DNA of 64,000 nucleotides from positions 682,001-746,000 of the forward strand of contig BQWY01000001.1 of the NCBI GenBank assembly GCA_036984305.1, in the 5' to 3' direction. The notes under the pieces are model-generated. The model saw nothing but the letters and a program-made list of their open reading frames with translations. It ran no database searches and was not told the DNA's origin. A program made the translations under genes and the position numbers. This document shows positions 34,279-45,999 of the stretch, piece by piece. Positions within the stretch are counted from its first letter, which is position 1, and the number at the start of each line of letters is the position of its first letter. This DNA is from Nitrospira sp. Lineage in GTDB: Bacteria > Nitrospirota > Nitrospiria > Nitrospirales > Nitrospiraceae.

Positions 34279-35454
34279 ATGTCGACTCCGTCTTCTTCAC
34301 GCAGTCGGATGCCGGGAAGACCAATGTCCGCCCGGGATGCACGAAAGGGTCTGGTGGCGGTGACCCTTCTGCTGGGCCTGGGCTGCACGGCACCCGCGCC
34401 GCCCGTGCCGACTCCCTCTCTGCAGGGCGTCACGACTCTTGCATCGGGATGGACGCATTCATGTGCCCTGACCAAGGACGGACGCGTCCGCTGCTGGGGC
34501 AATAATCAGGACGGCCAACTTGGGGACGGCACCAGAGTGTCGCAACATACGCCGGATCTCGTCGTCGGCCTTTTGGGGTCGGCTCGAGACGTGACCGTGG
34601 GAGAGCGTCACACCTGCATTCTCACCGCGTCTGGAGGTGTGAAATGCTGGGGGAGCAATGAGGCGTCACAACTTGGGGACGGGACCCGGACGGATCGAGT
34701 CAGTCCAACTGAGGTCCATGAACTCCCGAGCGGCGTACGCATGGTGGCGGCGGGCGAACGCCATACCTGTGCGATGAGCGAACGTGGGGAGGTCCATTGC
34801 TGGGGCGGCAATCGTCATGGACAGCTGGGCGATGGGTCGTTCGACACGCGTGCCCGCGCCATCCGAGTCGTGGAGCTAGAGCCGGGCATCAGAGGTCTTG
34901 CAGTGGGATGGCGCCATACGTGCGTGCTGACAGCCTCAGGCGGCGTGAAATGTTGGGGTGCCAATCAAGACGGTCAGTTAGGCGATCGAACGGTGGTAGA
35001 CAAAGCCATTCCCGTGGATGTGTTCGGGCTCACGAGCGGGGTCGCGATGATTGCAGCAGGCGCACGTCACACCTGCGCCGCGCTCGATGCGGGTGGCGTG
35101 CGTTGCTGGGGGGCGAATGACCGGGGCCAGCTCGGCAACGGAACCACCGATCCTGTCGCTACGATCGGAGGACCCATACCTGGGCTGACGGAAGTGCGCG
35201 CTCTTTCAGCTGGATGGCAGCATACGTGTGCCCTTGCCGGCAAGGCAGTCTTCTGCTGGGGGGACAATGAAAAGGGGCAGGTCATCGACACGGGCACCAG
35301 ATTGATCGTCCCTACACCGGTGGAAGCGCCACTTGGACAAGCGGAGGTCTTACGTGTGGCTGCCGGTGGTCACCACACCTGTGTGCTCGTGAGCGAAGGT
35401 GACTTCTCGTGCTGGGGCGATAACGAGTACGGTCAGTTGGGGAAGGAAGAATGA
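34279..35454 (+). CDS. RCC1-repeat beta-propeller lipoprotein
   Basis: A 391-residue protein with a lipobox-like LLLGLGCTAP and seven RCC1 repeats of about 50 residues. Each has the core HTCxLxxxGxVxCWGxNxxGQLGDG, e.g. HSCALTKDGRVRCWGNNQDG and RHTCVLTASGGVKCWGANQD. Seven repeats make a complete propeller. Each blade carries two Cys about 12 residues apart, so seven disulfides are likely in the oxidising periplasm. Secreted RCC1 propellers act as binding scaffolds; the ligand is unknown. It starts three bases after the preceding exported protein's stop. Confidence 0.88.
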   Translation: MSTPSSSRSRMPGRPMSARDARKGLVAVTLLLGLGCTAPAPPVPTPSLQGVTTLASGWTHSCALTKDGRVRCWGNNQDGQLGDGTRVSQHTPDLVVGLLGSARDVTVGERHTCILTASGGVKCWGSNEASQLGDGTRTDRVSPTEVHELPSGVRMVAAGERHTCAMSERGEVHCWGGNRHGQLGDGSFDTRARAIRVVELEPGIRGLAVGWRHTCVLTASGGVKCWGANQDGQLGDRTVVDKAIPVDVFGLTSGVAMIAAGARHTCAALDAGGVRCWGANDRGQLGNGTTDPVATIGGPIPGLTEVRALSAGWQHTCALAGKAVFCWGDNEKGQVIDTGTRLIVPTPVEAPLGQAEVLRVAAGGHHTCVLVSEGDFSCWGDNEYGQLGKEE

Positions 35455-37469: not shown

Positions 37470-39170
37470 CTACCGCCGAATATGGGCCCAGGCTTTTTGA
37501 TATTCCTCGAAGGAGTCGACTTCCATCCAACCTTTGTAGATCGGCACGGCGCTCACGCTGTGCCCGGCGTCGATGAGTTCCTGGATCATGTCGGTAAATG
37601 CCGCCTTGGCCAGGCTCGGCGATTCGTGGAAGGGTTTGTTGACATAGGTGGCGAGAACGTGTCGATAGGTCTCGGTCAATGTGCGAATGGCTTTCTCTGA
37701 GAACATCGCCATTCCAATGAACTCTCCGTGCGCGTTGTCGTGAGAGAGGTGCTGCCCGATCTTCACGATGCGATGCTCGTCCTCCGGCATGACGAATCGG
37801 GAGAGGTAGCTCTTCCCCGGGGCTTGCTCGAAGGAGACGAGATCCGGGTTGAGATGCGCACCCTTTGGGCGCGCCTGATGCTGGTCGTACCACGCGAGGT
37901 CGACGACAAGGGCGATGTCGGCCGGGCTTTTGAGGAGTTTTTCCAGAATCGCGACGTCGAACAGGATGTCGCCGTACATCAAAATGGTGCGCGCCGTGAG
38001 CTCGTTTTCGGCGCAAAAAATGGAGAACAGCTCGCCCGTACTCTCGTATTGATCGTTGTCGTAATAGCGGATGTTCGGCAGCGAGATCGCTTCTTTCTTG
38101 TATCCGCGGACGAGCGCGATTTCCTTGATATTGCAGTCGTTGAGTGCGGCGATCTGCCGTTCCAGGATCGTCTTGCCCTTGATGTCGAGCAAACACTTTG
38201 GCTTGTCCTCGATCAATGGCAGCAGTTGCTTCTCGAACCCGGCGGCCGCGATGACGGCGGTAATCTTTCCGCCGCCGACGGGTAGGAATTGCTTCTCGTC
38301 TCGCTCCATCTCAGGGACGCCGACAATCTCGTAGACTTCCGGCAACGTGACAATGCGGTCGTTGGCCGCACCGGGTCGGGTATCCTGCTTGATGAGGTCA
38401 AGCGCCTCGCGCATGCCTCGGATGGCGGCGCGCACCGGCTGGTTGGCGTAGATGATGATCTTCGCACCTGCGGCCTCGAGTTCGGCGGCGGTGGTCTGAT
38501 CGAAGATTGTCGGCACAACGACGAGCGGTACCCGGCCGGAAAATGCCTTGTACACCGCCTTGAGCTCATCGAAGGCCTTGGACTTGGAGTGGATCAGCAC
38601 GGCGTCGGCGCCCGCCTCTGCGTAGGCCTCCGCCCGCTTCAACGCTTCTTCCTGTCCCCATCCGGCGATAAGCGCCTCGGTGCGCGCGATTAGCATGAAT
38701 TCGGGATGGAGTTGCGCCGCCTTGGCCGCCTTGATCTTGCCGCAGTGTTCCTCGATTGGAATCAATTCGCGGCGCACGCCGGCGTAAAAGCTACAACGCT
38801 TGGGATAGACGTTGTCCTCGATGCAAATGGCGGCCACGCCGGCCCGCTCGCGGTCGTTGACCGCGCGCATGACGTTCAGCGCGTTGCCGTAGCCCGTATC
38901 GCAGTCGGCAATAATCGGAATCGATACGGCCTCCGCGATGTTACGTTCGACGGCCAGTTGTTCGCTGGAATCGATGAAACTGGCGTCAGGGATGCACTTG
39001 AGTGAGGCCGAGATGGCAAAGCCACTTGCCCAAATGGCGTCGAAGCCCGCGCGCTCGATCAATCGGGCGCTCAGCGCATCGTGCGCGCCCACGGCTTTGA
39101 TGGCGCCGGGTCGTTTCAGCAGTGCGCGGAGCGTGACGGCTGGATGAACGGGAGACATGGCGACGCGCAT
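37470..39170 (-). CDS. PEP mutase fused to a nucleotidyltransferase domain (phosphonate biosynthesis)
   Basis: A 566-residue fusion. Residues 1-290 are a PEP mutase/isocitrate-lyase-superfamily barrel: SGFAISAS, the metal motif DCDTGYGN (89-96), the gating-loop motif, LIARTEAL and LIHSKSK. The gating motif reads EDNVYPKRCS (118-127), where typical PEP mutases have EDKxxxKxNS: Lys is Asn120 and Asn is Cys126. Residues 300-566 are a LicC/PntC-like nucleotidyltransferase, but its nucleotide signature reads AAGFEKQLLP (309-318) in place of AAGxGxRL. The expected reaction is PEP to phosphonopyruvate. The next phosphonate genes lie on the opposite strand. Confidence 0.85.
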   Translation of the reverse strand: MRVAMSPVHPAVTLRALLKRPGAIKAVGAHDALSARLIERAGFDAIWASGFAISASLKCIPDASFIDSSEQLAVERNIAEAVSIPIIADCDTGYGNALNVMRAVNDRERAGVAAICIEDNVYPKRCSFYAGVRRELIPIEEHCGKIKAAKAAQLHPEFMLIARTEALIAGWGQEEALKRAEAYAEAGADAVLIHSKSKAFDELKAVYKAFSGRVPLVVVPTIFDQTTAAELEAAGAKIIIYANQPVRAAIRGMREALDLIKQDTRPGAANDRIVTLPEVYEIVGVPEMERDEKQFLPVGGGKITAVIAAAGFEKQLLPLIEDKPKCLLDIKGKTILERQIAALNDCNIKEIALVRGYKKEAISLPNIRYYDNDQYESTGELFSIFCAENELTARTILMYGDILFDVAILEKLLKSPADIALVVDLAWYDQHQARPKGAHLNPDLVSFEQAPGKSYLSRFVMPEDEHRIVKIGQHLSHDNAHGEFIGMAMFSEKAIRTLTETYRHVLATYVNKPFHESPSLAKAAFTDMIQELIDAGHSVSAVPIYKGWMEVDSFEEYQKAWAHIRR

Positions 39171-39236: not shown

Positions 39237-39794
39237 CTAGAATCCAGCTGGGGCACCTTCGTTGAGTTGCGGAGCCCACACCTGGCTTTCGAAAAAGATG
39301 ACGCCTTCTTCGTCATGGATTTTGTACCGCAGCGTCACGTCGGTTTCCTCGCCATGCCAATTGTGAAAGCGGACGGATCCCATCGCGATTTGCCCCGGCG
39401 TGCGATCGAGTTCTCCGTATCGGTTCTCGAGGTATTTCATAATGGCGTCGTGCACAGTCTTGCTGCGATAGCGGACGGCGACGCGCGCAAACCGATCCTT
39501 GGCCGTATAAAATCGCATGGAATCGACAGGCACCGTGCCCAAAGCAGGTGTGATGCCGATCAGTTCGTAGGCTTTCAGCCGGCCGGTATCCTCGACCTTG
39601 TGGAAGGTTTCCGACTCCTTGAAGGTGGCGCCCCATGGAATGCCTTCGAAATCACGCGTATCGTGCTCGATCGGGACGGCTCCCGCGGGGATCGATGAAA
39701 GCAGCAGGGCGGTGAGTCCGGCCAGCAGGCCGTGGTACAACGTACGCGCCCATGTAGGGCGAGTGTTGCTACTCCGCACTGTCCGTGATTCCAT
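39237..39794 (-). CDS. Exported protein, tandem paralogue 1
   Basis: A 185-residue product with a signal peptide (LYHGLLAGLTALLLSSIPAG) and a mature domain containing DFEGIPWGATFKE, KDRFARVAVRYRSKTVHDAI, MKYLENRYGELDRTPGQIA and EETDVTLRYKI. The upstream gene encodes a clear relative. FxGIxWGAxxxE and YLExRxGxLDxTPGQ are shared. The family looks like small periplasmic proteins of unknown function. Its start overlaps the upstream copy by 26 bp. It lies inside the phosphonate locus without obvious biochemical link. Confidence 0.75.
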   Translation of the reverse strand: MESRTVRSSNTRPTWARTLYHGLLAGLTALLLSSIPAGAVPIEHDTRDFEGIPWGATFKESETFHKVEDTGRLKAYELIGITPALGTVPVDSMRFYTAKDRFARVAVRYRSKTVHDAIMKYLENRYGELDRTPGQIAMGSVRFHNWHGEETDVTLRYKIHDEEGVIFFESQVWAPQLNEGAPAGF

Positions 39795-40302
39795 CGTTGA
39801 ATCGTGGGGCGAGCGTGCGGCTGTCGAAGAACACGAATCCTCGTTCGCTGCGCCCTTCGTAGGTTAGATTGATTTCGGTCTCAGGCCCCCTCCAATTATA
39901 CTGCTGGTTCAGACCGCGGACCATCTGTCCTGGGGTCTTGTCCAATGGTCCGAACCGTGTCTCCAAATACGCCAGCACCTGTTTGTGGACCGCTTCACCT
40001 TTGTAACGAACGGTCACCCGAGCGAACTTTCCTTCGACCGTCACCAGCAGCAAACTGGCGACGGGAATCGTGTCCAGTGCGGGCGATGAATCTTTGATTT
40101 CATATTCGCCGACGCGCGGCCCGGCGTAGGTTTGCTTCAGTTCAGGCCGACCCTTGAGAGAGGCTCCCCACTCGATGCCTTGGAAGCCCTTGGGGTCGTT
40201 GTGCAACTCCGCGGTCGCGAATGCGGGCGACGTCGTGGTCCATCCCCAGCCGATCAGTCCCAAAAGCCCGATGGCAAGCCGCGTGGAACGCATACTTGGC
40301 AC
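39769..40302 (-). CDS. Exported protein, tandem paralogue 2
   Basis: A 177-residue product with a signal peptide (LAIGLLGLIGWGWTTTSPAF) and the same domain as the gene after it: GFQGIEWGASLKG, GKFARVTVRYKGEAVHKQVL, AYLETRFGPLDKTPGQMV and ETEINLTYEG. About one third of positions agree by eye. It is transcribed away from the phosphonopyruvate decarboxylase gene, from the shared 98-bp divergent region 40303-40400. Function unknown. Confidence 0.75.
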   Translation of the reverse strand: MPSMRSTRLAIGLLGLIGWGWTTTSPAFATAELHNDPKGFQGIEWGASLKGRPELKQTYAGPRVGEYEIKDSSPALDTIPVASLLLVTVEGKFARVTVRYKGEAVHKQVLAYLETRFGPLDKTPGQMVRGLNQQYNWRGPETEINLTYEGRSERGFVFFDSRTLAPRFNDGITDSAE

Positions 40303-40400: not shown

Positions 40401-40898
40401 ATGATCGACAGCGACGTCTTTGTGCAAGCGCTTCAGGATATCGGCGTGGAGTTTTTCACCGGCGTGCCGGATTCCATCCTTGGTGGGATCATCGCGACGT
40501 TGATGGAGCGTCGGCTGTATGTGCCGGCCAATCGGGAAGACGAGGCAGTGGCGATGGCTGCCGGCGCGTACATGGCGGGGAGGGTCCCGGCCGTCCTCAT
40601 GCAAAATTCAGGGTTGGGCACCTCGCTGAATACGATCATTTCTCTGAACCTCATTTACCAGCAACCCTGCATCATGATCGTGTCGTGGCGCGGATATCAG
40701 GGGAAGGATGCCCCGGAGCACTTGGTCATGGGCGAAACGATGCCGCAGTTGCTTGACTTGATGAAAATTCCCCATCGGACGCTGACGGAAGCCACGATGG
40801 CGCAGGATCTGAAATGGGTGGCCGAGACGTTCATGACGCGACGTATCCCCGTCGCCCTCATCATTCAAAAGGGAGTTGTGCATAGCCTGCACCCGTGA
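40401..40898 (+). CDS. Phosphonopyruvate decarboxylase, N-terminal (alpha) subunit
   Basis: A 165-residue thiamine-diphosphate PYR domain: FFTGVPDSILGGIIATLMER, the catalytic-Glu segment PANREDEAVAMAAGAYMAGR, VLMQNSGLGTSLNTIISL and a helix ending HRTLTEA. This is the N-terminal half of AepY-type enzymes, which convert phosphonopyruvate to phosphonoacetaldehyde. Here it is a separate polypeptide, as in sulfopyruvate decarboxylase ComDE. The stop overlaps the GTG that could start the beta subunit. Sulfopyruvate as substrate cannot be excluded by sequence alone; the PEP mutase and AEP transaminase favour phosphonopyruvate. Confidence 0.87.
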   Translation: MIDSDVFVQALQDIGVEFFTGVPDSILGGIIATLMERRLYVPANREDEAVAMAAGAYMAGRVPAVLMQNSGLGTSLNTIISLNLIYQQPCIMIVSWRGYQGKDAPEHLVMGETMPQLLDLMKIPHRTLTEATMAQDLKWVAETFMTRRIPVALIIQKGVVHSLHP

Positions 40899-40948
40899 GA
40901 CGCGCAGCGAGCGGTGCAGCGGGGCGATGGGGCGATCATGACGAAGCT

Positions 40949-41533
40949 ATGAGTATGAGACCCGAACAAGGAGCCATGCAAAGTCGGGCGCAGGCCATGG
41001 AGGCCTTGCTCTCCCTCATGACGGATCAACCGGTCATCGTCTGCAACGGGTTTCCATCGCGCGAGGTGTGCAAGATCGCCGATCGTCCGACGCATTTTTA
41101 TATGATCGGATCGATGGGAGTGGCTGCGGCGATCGGTCTCGGGGTGGCTCTGAACAAGCCCAGCAAGAAGGTTGTCGTGTTCGACGGCGATGGGAACGTG
41201 CTGATGGGAATGGGGACACTGGCCACTGTGGGAGCGGTCAAACCCAAGAACTTCGTCCATGTGGTGTTCGATAATGAAGTCTACGGGACGACCGGCAATC
41301 AGCCGACCTATGCTCGGGTGGTACGGCTGGACCAGGTTGCGAAAGCCGCCGGCTATGTCAACGTCGAACGGGTGCACGAGCGTGAGGATTTGGTATACGA
41401 GTTCAAGGACATGCTGAGCAAGGATGGCCCGAGCTTTCTGCTGGTGAAAGTCAACGAACTCGTGGAGGAGGCCGGGCGGATTCCTCACGACCCTCCGGTT
41501 ATCACCCAGCGATTCAAGAAAGCCATTGAATAG
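40949..41533 (+). CDS. Phosphonopyruvate decarboxylase, C-terminal (beta) subunit
   Basis: A 194-residue thiamine-diphosphate-binding PP domain: MIGSMGVAAAIGLGVAL, the cofactor motif VVFDGDGNVLMGMGTLATVG, then FVHVVFDNEVYGTTGNQP and a C-terminal helix with GPSFLLVKVNEL. It pairs with the alpha subunit upstream. An in-frame GTG at 40895 overlaps the alpha stop; ATG 40949 is preferred because the extra 18 residues (RAASGAAGRWGDHDEA) lack family similarity. The two domains are fused in most AepY enzymes, so this is the split form. Confidence 0.87.
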   Translation: MSMRPEQGAMQSRAQAMEALLSLMTDQPVIVCNGFPSREVCKIADRPTHFYMIGSMGVAAAIGLGVALNKPSKKVVVFDGDGNVLMGMGTLATVGAVKPKNFVHVVFDNEVYGTTGNQPTYARVVRLDQVAKAAGYVNVERVHEREDLVYEFKDMLSKDGPSFLLVKVNELVEEAGRIPHDPPVITQRFKKAIE

Positions 41534-41655: not shown

Positions 41656-42750
41656 GTGATCCTGCTTAATCCCGGACCAGTCAACGTCAGCGAACGCGTT
41701 CGAAGGGCGCTGCTTCAGCCCGATATTTGTCATCGCGAGGGAGAGTTCACCGAACTCCTCCGTCGCGTTCAGCACAAGCTGCTGAAGGCGTTTGTTCCCG
41801 GGGCTGAATCGGAGTATGTCGCGGCGGTCATCTCGGGTTCCGGAACGGCGGCCGTGGAAGCGGCAGTGCTCTCGTCGGTGCCTCATGGCAAACGAGTGCT
41901 GGTGCTTAACAACGGGGTCTACGGGGAGCGGCTATCGCTCATCGCCAACGGCCAAAAAATCGCCGTGCCAGAGGTCAAGATGGATTGGGGTAAGCGGCCG
42001 ACGGCCGAACTGATCAAACAGGCGCTGAAAGTCCGTCCGGAGGTTCAGACCGTGGCGATGGTCCACCATGAGACCACGACCGGCCTGATGAATCCCGCCG
42101 AAGAGATTTCCGAGGCGGTCGACAGCTTGGGGCGCGTGTTCGTGCTCGACTCAGTGAGCGGATTGGGCGGGGAGCCGCTCAATATCGCTGGATCCCACAT
42201 GTATCTCGTCGCAGGGACGGCGGGGAAGTGTATCCAGGGCTTCCCCGGTGTGTCGTTCGTTCTCGTTCGTCGGGGCTTTCTCGATCGCATGCGGACCTAT
42301 CCCAAGCGCAGCTGGTACCTCAGCCTGCCGCAATATGTGGACGAGCAGGGAAACGGTGCGGTTCCGTTCACGCCAGCCGTGCAAATCTATTACGCTTTCG
42401 ACGAGGCGCTGAATGAATTGCTCGAGGAGGGTGTGGCCAAGCGCATCCAACGGCTGAAGCGGGCCGCGACTCTAATACGCCAGAAAATGAGCGATCTGGG
42501 CGTGAAGGCGTTGCTCCCGGCGGATGTCCAGTCCAATTCTCTTACCTCCTATCTGCTGCCCGACGGTCTTGCGTATGACGTGCTGCACGATCGGCTGAAA
42601 GAGCGCGGCTATGTCATTTACGCCGGACAGGGCGCGTTGGCATCGAAGATTTTCCGTATCGCCAACATGGGGGCGCTGACCGAGTCGGACCTGCAAGGCT
42701 TTCTCACAGCCTTCCAAGAGGTGTTGGAAGCGGCCGTGGTTTCTCGGTGA
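41656..42750 (+). CDS. 2-aminoethylphosphonate transaminase (class V, PhnW-like)
   Basis: A 364-residue PLP enzyme: MILLNPGPVNVSERVRRAL, GSGTAAVEAAVLSSV, the PLP-binding Asp165 (VLDSVSGLGG) and Lys191 in VAGTAGKCIQGFPG. These fit AEP:pyruvate aminotransferases. In a biosynthetic locus it would run toward AEP by aminating phosphonoacetaldehyde. GTG start at 41656 has GAGGGAG seven bases upstream. Its stop overlaps the next gene's GTG start by four bases. Confidence 0.88.
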   Translation: MILLNPGPVNVSERVRRALLQPDICHREGEFTELLRRVQHKLLKAFVPGAESEYVAAVISGSGTAAVEAAVLSSVPHGKRVLVLNNGVYGERLSLIANGQKIAVPEVKMDWGKRPTAELIKQALKVRPEVQTVAMVHHETTTGLMNPAEEISEAVDSLGRVFVLDSVSGLGGEPLNIAGSHMYLVAGTAGKCIQGFPGVSFVLVRRGFLDRMRTYPKRSWYLSLPQYVDEQGNGAVPFTPAVQIYYAFDEALNELLEEGVAKRIQRLKRAATLIRQKMSDLGVKALLPADVQSNSLTSYLLPDGLAYDVLHDRLKERGYVIYAGQGALASKIFRIANMGALTESDLQGFLTAFQEVLEAAVVSR

Positions 42751-43469
42751 AGGCACTCCTCCTCGCAGCCGGAGTCGGCAAGCGGCTTTGGGCCATCACA
42801 CAGTATCGTCCCAAGTGTCTCATTGAGTTCGGCGGCAAATCTCTGCTGGTCCGTCACCTTGAAACGCTGGCTTCGCTCGGAGTGCGGCGGACGACCATCG
42901 TGGTCGGCTATAAGCAGGAAATGATTCGAAAGGCGGTGGGCGAGGTCTATGCCGGCGTCTCGCTCGACTACGTGGTGAACGACCAATACCATCGTGGCAG
43001 TATCTCTTCGCTCTGGATGGCGCGCCGATCGCTGGACGATGACGTTGTCATCATGGATGCCGATGTTTTGTATCATCGCGAGATCATGCGGCGCCTGCTG
43101 CGGGCCACACACCCGACGTGCCTGTTGATGGACGAAAGCGTCAAGCAAACGGGCGAAGAATGCATGGTGGTGGTGCGTGGCGGGCGCGTCACCGCTCTCA
43201 CGAAACGGATGCCCTCTGCGTACGATTATGCCGGAGAGGGCGTCGGGTTTCTGAAGGTCCAGCATTCGGACGCCGACCAGCTCGTGGCCTCGCTCGAGGC
43301 CCATATCGAGCGCGACGAGTGGGACATGGAATACGAAGACGGGTTGCGTGAGTTCTTTTCGGCCGTTACGGTCGGGCATGAAAAAATCGGCGGGCTCCCG
43401 TGGACCGAGATCGACTTCCCCGAGGATGTCGAGAAGGCCACACGGGAAATCCTCCCCAAACTGGACTAA
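42747..43469 (+). CDS. LicC/PntC-like cytidylyltransferase, likely CTP:AEP cytidylyltransferase
   Basis: A 240-residue nucleotidyltransferase with the intact signature LLAAGVGKRLWAI (Gly9-x-Gly11-x-Arg13), RPKCLIEFGGKSLL, VVNDQYHRGSISSLWMAR and the metal Asp in VIMDADVLYH. NDxYxxxxxxxSL is characteristic of the LicC choline-phosphate cytidylyltransferase group, to which the CMP-AEP-forming PntC belongs. It is coupled to the AEP transaminase by a four-base overlap, which favours AEP as substrate. Of the three nucleotidyltransferase domains in the locus it is the only one with a complete GxGxR loop. Confidence 0.82.
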   Translation: MKALLLAAGVGKRLWAITQYRPKCLIEFGGKSLLVRHLETLASLGVRRTTIVVGYKQEMIRKAVGEVYAGVSLDYVVNDQYHRGSISSLWMARRSLDDDVVIMDADVLYHREIMRRLLRATHPTCLLMDESVKQTGEECMVVVRGGRVTALTKRMPSAYDYAGEGVGFLKVQHSDADQLVASLEAHIERDEWDMEYEDGLREFFSAVTVGHEKIGGLPWTEIDFPEDVEKATREILPKLD

Positions 43470-43522
43470 CCTTTTCCGACGCGCTAGAGTACTCAGGATC
43501 CCCCGGAGAGAGTGCACGTTCG

Positions 43523-44983
43523 ATGAGTCACAGCGCCGTTCAACGACTAACCCAGACGCGTGCGGTTACCTCAGCCATCCTGTTGACCGCCCGGAACGTG
43601 TTTACGCACACGGTGGTACCAGCCCATGGTTCCATAGGGCCGTTGACGCGTATTGCCGGATTGACGCTTTTTCAGCGCTGTCTCTTGACCCTGCAGCGTT
43701 GCGGCCTCAGCCAAGTATTCATCCTGTCCGGTGACGAGGCGGAATCGCTGAAAGCGGTCCTGGCCGAGGGGCCTGCGATCACAATGGGCATTCGCTGGAT
43801 TCCGGTGCGGGAGTTTCCTCCGGAGGATCCGCGCACCTGGGAGACCTTGGCGGCCGACGCCACGGGCGCATGCGTCGTTGTTGGTCCTCAGGTTGCGTTC
43901 TCGCGAGGCCTGATCGAGACCCTCCGGGGGATGGGGCAGGTTGATGATTTGGTGGTGGTCCTTCGCGACGAGGACAGAAGTCGCTCCAGTGCCGGTCCCC
44001 AGGATCGCGGGAATCTGCGTAAGCATGAAAGCCTCATGCGCCTGGCGGGGATCGTCCGCGCCGGGGCTGCCAAACCTTCGCATGTGGCTGGCGTAGCCAG
44101 CGAGGTGGTCCTTGTGCCGGCCGGCGGGTTCGTCAAGGGGAGCGCCCTTGCCGAACTGTTGCTGACGCGGGGGCGAGAAGACCAGGCCGGTGATACGCCG
44201 ATGGCACGGTTGGTGGAAGCTGCGGCGGCCGATGGACGTGTAAGCGTGGTCGAGGCTCGGGCAGGGTCCACCACGTGGGCCCGGGAGGTGCATGAGGCCG
44301 GCGATGCGAAGTGCGTGGAGCGAGCCTTATACGGATCGCTCAAGAGCAATTTTGAAGGCGTGGTCGACAAGTATTTGAATCGCCGCCTGTCGCCGCTGTT
44401 TACAAAGATATTCCTGGCCTTGAAGATGACGCCGAACGCCATCACCGTGTTGGCGACGATGATCGGTTTGATCGGTGCCGTCTGTTTTGCGCAGGGATCC
44501 TATGTGGCTGGGTTGCTCGGGGCGTTGCTCTTCCAGTGGTCGGCGGTCATCGATTGCTGCGACGGCGAGGTGGCGCGGTTGACGTTTGCCGAATCGCCGT
44601 TCGGCGCGAAACTCGACCTGTGGCTGGATAACCTCGTCCACGTGGCGATTTTCGCGGGACTCGCGTATGGTGCCTACCATCATTCACCGGCTGGACTCGA
44701 TCCTCGGCTCGTCCTATGGGGCGGGGTCGCCGCAGTGGCCGCGAACGTGGTGTCCTTTTTCTCCGTCACGCGGCTGACGGTGCGCCAGCATGACGGGGCC
44801 CGCTCGCCCTGGGTCGATTTTCTACTCAAAAACGTGGCCACGAGGGATTTCTCGCTGATCGTGCTGGTCTGCGCGGTCATAGGACAGCTTCCCTGGTTTC
44901 TCATGGTTGCAGCCGCCGGTTCGGCGCTCTTCGCTCTGGTCACCCTGGTGCTCTTGTTCTTCGTCCGGCCCACTCGAGAGTGA
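43523..44983 (+). CDS. CDP-alcohol phosphotransferase with degenerate nucleotidyltransferase domain
   Basis: A 486-residue protein. Residues 1-270 resemble a sugar-nucleotidyltransferase fold (TLFQRCLLTLQRCGLSQVFI, ALAELLLTRGRED), but the expected GxGxR loop is replaced by LLTARNVFTHT. Residues 290-486 are a polytopic CDP-alcohol phosphotransferase with a perfect catalytic motif, Asp344-x2-Asp347-Gly...Ala-Arg...Gly361-x3-Asp365-x3-Asp369 (DCCDGEVAR, then GAKLDLWLD). The layout recalls bifunctional IPCT-DIPPS enzymes. In this locus it probably transfers AEP from CMP-AEP to a lipid or polyol alcohol. Its stop overlaps the next gene's start. Confidence 0.85.
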   Translation: MSHSAVQRLTQTRAVTSAILLTARNVFTHTVVPAHGSIGPLTRIAGLTLFQRCLLTLQRCGLSQVFILSGDEAESLKAVLAEGPAITMGIRWIPVREFPPEDPRTWETLAADATGACVVVGPQVAFSRGLIETLRGMGQVDDLVVVLRDEDRSRSSAGPQDRGNLRKHESLMRLAGIVRAGAAKPSHVAGVASEVVLVPAGGFVKGSALAELLLTRGREDQAGDTPMARLVEAAAADGRVSVVEARAGSTTWAREVHEAGDAKCVERALYGSLKSNFEGVVDKYLNRRLSPLFTKIFLALKMTPNAITVLATMIGLIGAVCFAQGSYVAGLLGALLFQWSAVIDCCDGEVARLTFAESPFGAKLDLWLDNLVHVAIFAGLAYGAYHHSPAGLDPRLVLWGGVAAVAANVVSFFSVTRLTVRQHDGARSPWVDFLLKNVATRDFSLIVLVCAVIGQLPWFLMVAAAGSALFALVTLVLLFFVRPTRE

Positions 44984-45999
44984 TGTGGCTTAGGCTCTTT
45001 TTCCTTCTGGTCGGGACGCTCACCCTTTCGATTCTCGTCTGGCATATCGGTCCCTCGCGCATCTGGGCGGCAATGACCCAGGTCGGTCCATTCGGACTAT
45101 TGCTGGTGCTCCTGCCTTCTCTGGCGATGTACCTCTTCGAAGCGTACGGTTGGAAACTCACGCTCGGTGCCTATGCCGACGCCGTATCATTTCTCAAGTT
45201 GCTCGCCATTCGGACGGCCGGCGAAGTGGTCAATATGACCACGCCGACAGCTTACGTGGGCGGTGAGCCCCTGAAGGCCTATCTCCTGAAACGCGACAAG
45301 ATCCCGTTTGTCGACGGCTTTGCCTCGGTGATCCTCGCGAAGACTGTCATGTCGATCGCGCAAGTCTTATTTATCTTGATCGCGTTGGCGTTAGCCGTAT
45401 GGATGGTCGGGCACGAACATTCCACGGCGCAGCTCGTGATGGCCTCGGTGATTAGTGCCGGGCTGCTGGGGTTCGGCATCGTCGGGGTTATTGTCGTACA
45501 ACGTTGGGGTCTTTTCACGGGAGCACTGGGAATTCTGCGGAGGGCCAATCTTCGGATTGCCTATCTGGAAGCACGCGCAAGCAAGTTTCACGACCTGGAC
45601 CGCACGATCTTGAATTTCTACTCGAGAGATCGACGGCGATTTCTGCTCTCGACCGGATGCTTTTTCATTGGCTGGCTCTGCGAGGCGCTGGAAGTCTGGG
45701 GCATGCTGGCGCTGTTGGGCCAGCCGGTCACCGTCGGAGCATCGGTTGCGATTGGGGGCTTGTCGTCCATGATCAAAGGCGGGACGTTTTTCATCCCCGG
45801 CAGTCTCGGTACGCAAGACGCCGGGAACCTCGTGCTGGTTACCGCGTTTGGCTATAGCGAAGTGGCCGGCATAACCTTTGCCCTCCTGCGACGATTCCGT
45901 GAGATTGTCTGGATTGTTATCGGACTCGCGTGTCTCACTGTGGCCAATTGGCGACCACCCGCGTTGGGAGAGGGGGAAGCGCCTGGAGGGCTGAATTAA
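44980..45999 (+). CDS. Flippase-like integral membrane protein (UPF0104/LPG-synthase TM family)
   Basis: A 339-residue protein with about eight hydrophobic segments. Typical signatures are LLPSLAMYLFEAYGWKL, TPTAYVGGEPLKAYLLKR, FASVILAKTVMSIAQVL, SSMIKGGTFFIPGSLGTQDA and RRFREIVWIVIGL. The GGEPxKxYLL and FFxPGxLGxQ pattern is the UPF0104/YbhN family, related to the membrane part of lysylphosphatidylglycerol synthase, often with lipid biosynthesis. It overlaps the phosphotransferase stop by four bases, so it may flip or position the phosphonolipid product. That role is inference. Confidence 0.8.
   Translation: MMWLRLFFLLVGTLTLSILVWHIGPSRIWAAMTQVGPFGLLLVLLPSLAMYLFEAYGWKLTLGAYADAVSFLKLLAIRTAGEVVNMTTPTAYVGGEPLKAYLLKRDKIPFVDGFASVILAKTVMSIAQVLFILIALALAVWMVGHEHSTAQLVMASVISAGLLGFGIVGVIVVQRWGLFTGALGILRRANLRIAYLEARASKFHDLDRTILNFYSRDRRRFLLSTGCFFIGWLCEALEVWGMLALLGQPVTVGASVAIGGLSSMIKGGTFFIPGSLGTQDAGNLVLVTAFGYSEVAGITFALLRRFREIVWIVIGLACLTVANWRPPALGEGEAPGGLN

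Follow-up and report, generated by a model that had tools for sequence, protein, structure and literature searches.

A proposed variant of phosphoenolpyruvate mutase with a lyase-type cysteine in its gating loop in Nitrospira

Phosphoenolpyruvate (PEP) mutase is the entry point to nearly all known biological phosphonates. A gene of Nitrospira sp. raises the question of whether a protein with a lyase-type cysteine in its gating loop can fill this position. The gene (37470..39170, minus strand) lies in the 64,000-nucleotide stretch of contig BQWY01000001.1 that we analysed, here called the window, and encodes 566 residues from an ATG start. The N-terminal 300 residues (38271..39170, minus strand) form a barrel of the PepM/ICL superfamily. 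The C-terminal half (residues 303-566; 37473..38264, minus strand) is a MobA/LicC-like nucleotidyltransferase (PF12804, 3.3e-9) that resembles CTP:phosphocholine cytidylyltransferase (1JYK, E 1.6e-9). We propose, with a probability of about 0.83, that its product is a true PEP mutase, converting PEP to phosphonopyruvate, of a divergent, early-branching clade that has the lyase Lys-Arg-Cys in its gating loop where mutases have Lys-x-Asn, and that it feeds a 2-aminoethylphosphonate (AEP) pathway.

The gating-loop motif, EDNVYPKRCS, spans residues 118-127 (38790..38819, minus strand), inside the interval 38780-38825 given for it in a preliminary description of this DNA; the surrounding translation reads AICIEDNVYPKRCSFYAG. 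Relative to the Mytilus PEP mutase, Cys126 takes the place of Asn122, Asn120 that of Lys116, and Lys124 that of Lys120. The other mutase motifs listed in that description, DCDTGYGN, LIARTEAL and IHS (as LIHS), were all found in the translation. Among profile models the highest score came from TIGR02320 (residues 14-283, 2.5e-80, 269.5 bits, compared with 257.4 bits for phosphonopyruvate hydrolase (PPH) and 197.2 bits for prpB), and PF13714 matched the same domain at 3.2e-58. The TIGR02320 score falls short of the curated cut-off of 319.55 bits, and the loop does not match EDK-x5-NS, the signature by which surveys define a valid PepM. By the published operational definition, which combines motif and model cut-off, the variant is not a PepM.

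The altered loop is widely conserved. The motif ED[N/Q]x[FY]PKRCSF is fixed in the 90 relatives compared, from Nitrospirota, Binatota, Planctomycetota, Acidobacteriota and Myxococcota; the motif was not used in assembling this set by homology or in aligning it, and some genomes in it are counted twice. At the third motif position (116 in the Mytilus numbering used below for alignment positions) 89 rows have Asn and one has Gln, and positions 120, 121 and 123 are Lys, Arg and Ser throughout; the Cys at 122, the ninth motif position, is found in 90 of 90 rows by construction, since the variant grouping is defined by its CSF ending. The alignment agrees with the initial placement of Asn120 and Cys126 at the mutase Lys116 and Asn122 positions. 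A protein search of GTDB, in which the closest relatives were Nitrospira and Nitrospiraceae records, gave 79 loci, nearly all of them with ED[N/Q/S]x[FY]PKRCSF (Ser occurs in one truncated relative) and the remaining handful with canonical EDKxFPKxNS. Carriers of the variant include Nitrospira moscoviensis and metagenome-assembled genomes (MAGs) of the other four phyla just named, and a search of a plasmid collection gave no relative above 60% identity. Within Nitrospirota, 41 of 396 genomes have the variant motif, and a reversed-pattern control over the same genomes gave zero matches. Silent codon differences between genomes within the motif indicate selection on the residues. A variant pepM with 57% identity in the PepM domain also occurs, together with a phosphonate cassette, on a contig from a MAG that bears the title Klebsiella pneumoniae (L057); the species label is very probably wrong. 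The mutase of a Bradyrhizobium guangzhouense plasmid (L172, aepX) has EDSCFPKMNSF, which shows that the EDK Lys can vary outside the variant clade too.

A hallmark motif changed at two positions, in a protein that is a fusion, could signify that the PepM domain is dead or vestigial and that selection acts only on the attached nucleotidyltransferase. We regard this as highly improbable, since all 90 variants retain D58, D85, D87, E114, K120, R159 and H190, the motif is kept despite silent codon variation, and the genomes retain phosphonopyruvate decarboxylase (Ppd) yet have no other mutase.

The active-site residues were compared across the superfamily. W44, D58, D85, D87, E114, K120, S123, R159, E161 and H190 are of the mutase/PPH type in all 90 variants, and S46 is kept in 79; D58, D85, D87, E114, K120 and R159 are common to variants, mutases, PPH and lyases. 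The lyases instead have Y/F44, G123, H124, D161 and E190. Position 48 is F or L in variant and mutase/PPH and A, Y or G in lyases, and at position 124 the variant has the Phe of the mutases, where PPH has Leu and the lyases His. No variant departs from the mutases in the metal ligands, in the catalytic Asp58, Lys120 and Arg159 or in the phosphonyl ligands Ser123 and His190. The Mg ligands are described in PMC7916636, where Arg159 and His190, and as a hypothesis Asn122 and Ser123, are said to bind the phosphonyl group. The variant has the lyase state at positions 121 (Arg), 122 (Cys) and 160 (Thr, residue 164), so that one could picture a C-C lyase, or an enzyme of other C-C, C-P or C-S chemistry, in which Cys126 serves as the lyase Cys does. 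The lyase combination of K(K/R)CGH, Glu190 and Asp161 is absent from the variant, which has KRCSF, His190 and Glu161. Because the Gly-His after the Cys and the Glu of the lyases are missing, replaced by Ser-Phe and His, a lyase role for Cys126 is unlikely, and we consider the lyase or other-chemistry explanation as a whole very unlikely.

The maximum-likelihood tree of the superfamily (77 rows, motif masked) points the same way. Lyases are split from mutases, PPH and variants by a 100/100 branch, and this branch, with the residue comparison, rules out placement of the variant among the lyases; it sits on the mutase/hydrolase side. On the lyase-rooted tree canonical mutases and PPH form one 100/98 clade, and the variants lie below it as a grade. 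A second tree with long branches removed gave the same picture. A single variant clade is not rejected by the AU test (p 0.35 and 0.28 on the two trees), and we therefore treat an ancestral position as probable and do not claim strict paraphyly. We read the variant as, most probably, a PEP mutase clade that branched off early. Given the basal position of the variants on lyase-rooted trees, a lyase-like ancestor seems to have passed the Cys on; the earlier label of a lyase-type Cys is right descriptively and probably also historically, the residue being kept and not newly gained. The AlphaFold2 model (pLDDT 88.6; only moderate, about 76, in the gating loop, residues 121-130) has its best structural match in the PEP mutase 5UNC (Z 40.0, rmsd 1.5 over 289 residues), followed by 1PYM (38.7), PPH (38.0) and the lyases (PrpB, at most 35.0).

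Most authors hold that Asn-to-Thr at position 122 separates phosphonopyruvate hydrolase from mutase (PMC7916636), and Asn-to-Cys could accordingly alter the reaction. The variant might then be a hydrolase, or another consumer of phosphonopyruvate, with a loop change that admits water, as Thr is held to do in PPH, and with pyruvate and phosphate as products. PPH departs from the mutases at this same loop position, is the second-closest solved family (235 bits, Z 38) and in most PPH-like rows also has Thr160. The variants, however, have Cys and not Thr at 122 and lie outside the PPH rows, which form a single 100/100 clade. Such an enzyme would also drain the substrate of the decarboxylase in genomes that have no other mutase, its gene neighbours are biosynthetic (cytidylyltransferases and a CDP-alcohol transferase), and it would have been swapped with a canonical PEP mutase about nine times on the cassette tree described below. 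We give this explanation very little weight. Four proteins from alphaproteobacterial plasmids (L175, CP050295; L166; L167; L169) have EDKxFPKVTS and group with PPH; because of this grouping, the annotation of one of them as 'phosphoenolpyruvate phosphomutase' is probably a misannotation.

The genes next to the variant pepM are those of a phosphonate locus, as had been stated at the outset. On the plus strand follow ppdA (40401..40898; TIGR03297 2e-38, profile 1-156) and ppdB (40895..41533; TIGR03297 3.7e-52, profile 167-358), for the alpha (N-terminal TPP) and beta (C-terminal TPP) halves of Ppd, a phnW-like 2-aminoethylphosphonate aminotransferase gene (41656..42750; TIGR03301 5.6e-103, 345 bits with a cut-off of 360.8) and a stand-alone gene for a PntC-like AEP cytidylyltransferase (42747..43469). 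The top PDB match of the last is 6PD1, the Treponema PntC (E 1.2e-16), which supports AEP activation. Then come a CDP-alcohol phosphotransferase with a long N-terminal part (43517..44983; PF01066 2.7e-9; start codon inferred) and a flippase-like membrane protein of the LPG synthase TM or HpnL type (44980..45999; PF03706 1.8e-30; TIGR03476 2.8e-45). Curated cut-offs are missed at this locus by the TIGR02320, Ppd and PhnW models alike. The product of ppdB scores slightly better with the sulfopyruvate decarboxylase beta model TIGR03846 (7.4e-56, also below its cut-off), which could be taken as a sign of C-S chemistry, but such a reading is at odds with a CDP-alcohol transferase and with PntC-like enzymes for nucleotidyl activation, and a sulfonate pathway of the ComDE kind was set aside in view of these enzymes. 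The division of Ppd into alpha and beta genes (40401-41533), both under curated cut-offs, is itself as in the sulfopyruvate decarboxylase ComDE. Between pepM and ppdA lie hypA (39237..39794, minus strand), for a conserved protein of unknown function, and hypB (39769..40302, minus strand), which is divergent from ppdA. The two are adjacent and paralogue-like, had no match in Pfam and are conserved neighbours of the phosphonate cassette in Nitrospira with either mutase type, hypA at about 30-59%. Close to the cassette, a putative lipoprotein (34279-35454, plus strand) has RCC1-type repeats (GxxHTC...CWG).

The strongest evidence on function comes from the distribution of the two mutase types. 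Pattern searches of the 396 Nitrospirota genomes found the variant motif in 41, canonical EDKxxPKxNS in 97 (one or two of these, outside the order, look like chance) and both in none; such searches can miss mutases with other motifs. Among the 144 genomes of the family and order, 40 have the variant, 94 the canonical form, 10 neither and none both, where an overlap of 26 would be expected if the two were independent (hypergeometric 1.6e-26, an indication of scale only, as the genomes are related). Another phylum has three genomes of each type and none with both. Profile searches likewise found variant and canonical mutase together in no genome examined, and a hidden second canonical mutase, looked for in this way in the variant genomes, was not found.

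The ppdA-ppdB-phnW-ntp2-cdpPT-flippase cassette recurs with unchanged gene order in genomes of the canonical type, accompanied in Nitrospiraceae by hypB-hypA, and the ppdA/B and phnW of these genomes are mostly 62-84% identical to those of the window. Such genomes have no pepM beside hypA; a canonical PepM-nucleotidyltransferase fusion is located elsewhere. On a tree of ppdA, ppdB and phnW (50 rows) the mutase type switches about nine times, at least seven of these switches being forced by well-supported branches, so that shared ancestry alone is ruled out as the source of the mutual exclusion. One mutase has repeatedly taken over from the other while the pathway stayed, as functional equivalence predicts and different chemistry does not. 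The option of a different C-C or C-P chemistry, left open in the preliminary description, is thus not needed and is disfavoured, because the variant is exchanged with a canonical PEP mutase in one pathway and stands apart from the lyases. The other option, that of a divergent mutase clade overlooked by surveys that rely on the motif, is the one backed by the exchange, by the mutase-side position on the tree and by the EDKx5NS filters of the surveys. Co-occurrence with the decarboxylase, proposed as a check, was found: a Ppd-like enzyme is encoded in 36 of 39 genomes searched, nearly all of them variant carriers. The variant pepM of several Binatota and of some deep Nitrospirota is not linked to ppdA and ppdB, which lie elsewhere in the genome. 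The variant, as the sole mutase of its genomes, thus has its expected partner, by genomic association.

Some genomes have parts of the cassette and no detected mutase. Four near-complete Nitrospiraceae genomes (G060, L163; G143, L164; G220; G295) keep ppdA-ppdB-phnW and lack PepM of either type, and the trio alone is therefore no proof of a mutase partner. In these four and in G307 PepM was not found and the CDP-alcohol transferase is also absent, a joint absence that counts in favour of the mutase reading; in the four it fits a loss of phosphonate transfer that left the trio with no obvious substrate. Three further genomes, 90-95% complete (G214, G235, G371), have the CDP-alcohol transferase and no detected PepM, perhaps through genome incompleteness.

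From its active-site residues, its phylogeny, its structure and its genetic interchangeability we predict that the variant works like PepM. The standard reaction would likely apply, in which Mg-bound PEP transfers its phosphoryl group via a metaphosphate-like intermediate that is recaptured at C3; the mechanism is the one that PMC7916636 summarises for the Mytilus enzyme, carried over here by analogy. Arg163, His194 and Ser127 would hold the intermediate, and Cys126, in the mobile loop at the Asn122 position, would come near the phosphonyl group on closure. The phosphonopyruvate formed would be decarboxylated by PpdAB and the product transaminated by the PhnW-like enzyme. The resulting AEP could be activated as CMP-AEP by the PntC-like enzyme, the fused nucleotidyltransferase or both, and the CDP-alcohol phosphotransferase may then move it to a lipid or glycan. 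Cys126 is most likely a retained ancestral residue that the mutase reaction tolerates or has adapted to, and not a new nucleophile. A bolder version, which we think unlikely, is that the clade preserves an early step in the evolution of PEP mutase (from lyase EDQ..KRCGH through ED[N/Q]..PKRCS to canonical EDK..PKxNS) and that the Cys also takes part in C-P bond formation, for example as acid/base or transient phosphoryl ligand, with a loop chemistry unlike that of Mytilus.

A genuine mutase of this kind would have escaped the surveys. Rice et al. 2019 (PMC6697681) kept only EDKXXXXXNS sequences and discarded the rest, 22 of which were fusions; members of the variant clade may be among them. 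Two later surveys, one marine (2022, PMC8931226) and one of actinomycetes (2025, PMC12723261), applied the same strict EDKx5NS test, and such filtering excludes the variant clade, about 30% of the PepM-bearing genomes in its order. A lake study with KEGG orthology reported pepM in Nitrospirota (PMC10734540), and orthology-based annotation can therefore find some Nitrospirota mutases. A literature search of open-licence papers found no description of a PEP mutase with ED[N/Q]..KRCS, and thus no prior account of EDN...CS mutases, which would have spoken against novelty. As the variant fills the canonical slot in its order and occurs in several phyla yet fails the filter, probable phosphonate producers, Nitrospira moscoviensis among them, go uncounted. 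With the variant as a natural intermediate one could examine how a C-C lyase scaffold turned to C-P bond formation, and the natural swaps between variant and canonical enzymes form a set on which to test which loop residues are essential.

The closest solved relative is the Streptomyces platensis PEP mutase (5UNC; 283 bits, Z 40.0, 50% identity over 289 residues), which has the same metal and phosphonyl ligands but is a stand-alone protein with EDKRFPKVNS in place of EDNVYPKRCS and a nucleotidyltransferase fusion. The Mytilus edulis PEP mutase (1PYM/1M1B; Z 38.7, 37% identity) has the fold and catalytic residues in common with the variant, and differs in having N122 and K116 where the variant has Cys and Asn. 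The canonical Nitrospira fusions (such as those of G145 and G189) resemble the variant in domain order, size and the downstream cassette of the genome, with a mutually exclusive distribution; they are only 33-36% identical to it, have EDKLFPKTNS, belong to the Mytilus-type clade and are encoded away from the cassette. The Variovorax phosphonopyruvate hydrolase (2DUA/2HRW; 45% identity) has the same fold and also differs from the mutases at that loop position, but has EDKTFPKDTS and belongs to its own 100/100 clade. The 2-methylisocitrate and isocitrate lyases (PrpB/ICL) have the gating-loop KRC and Thr160 in common with the variant, and unlike it have CGH, Y/F44, D161 and E190, Z values of at most 35 and a separate clade. 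Downstream, the stand-alone cytidylyltransferase matches the Treponema denticola PntC (6PD1; PMC6697681), which is fused to an aminotransferase, whereas in the window phnW and the cytidylyltransferase are adjacent genes.
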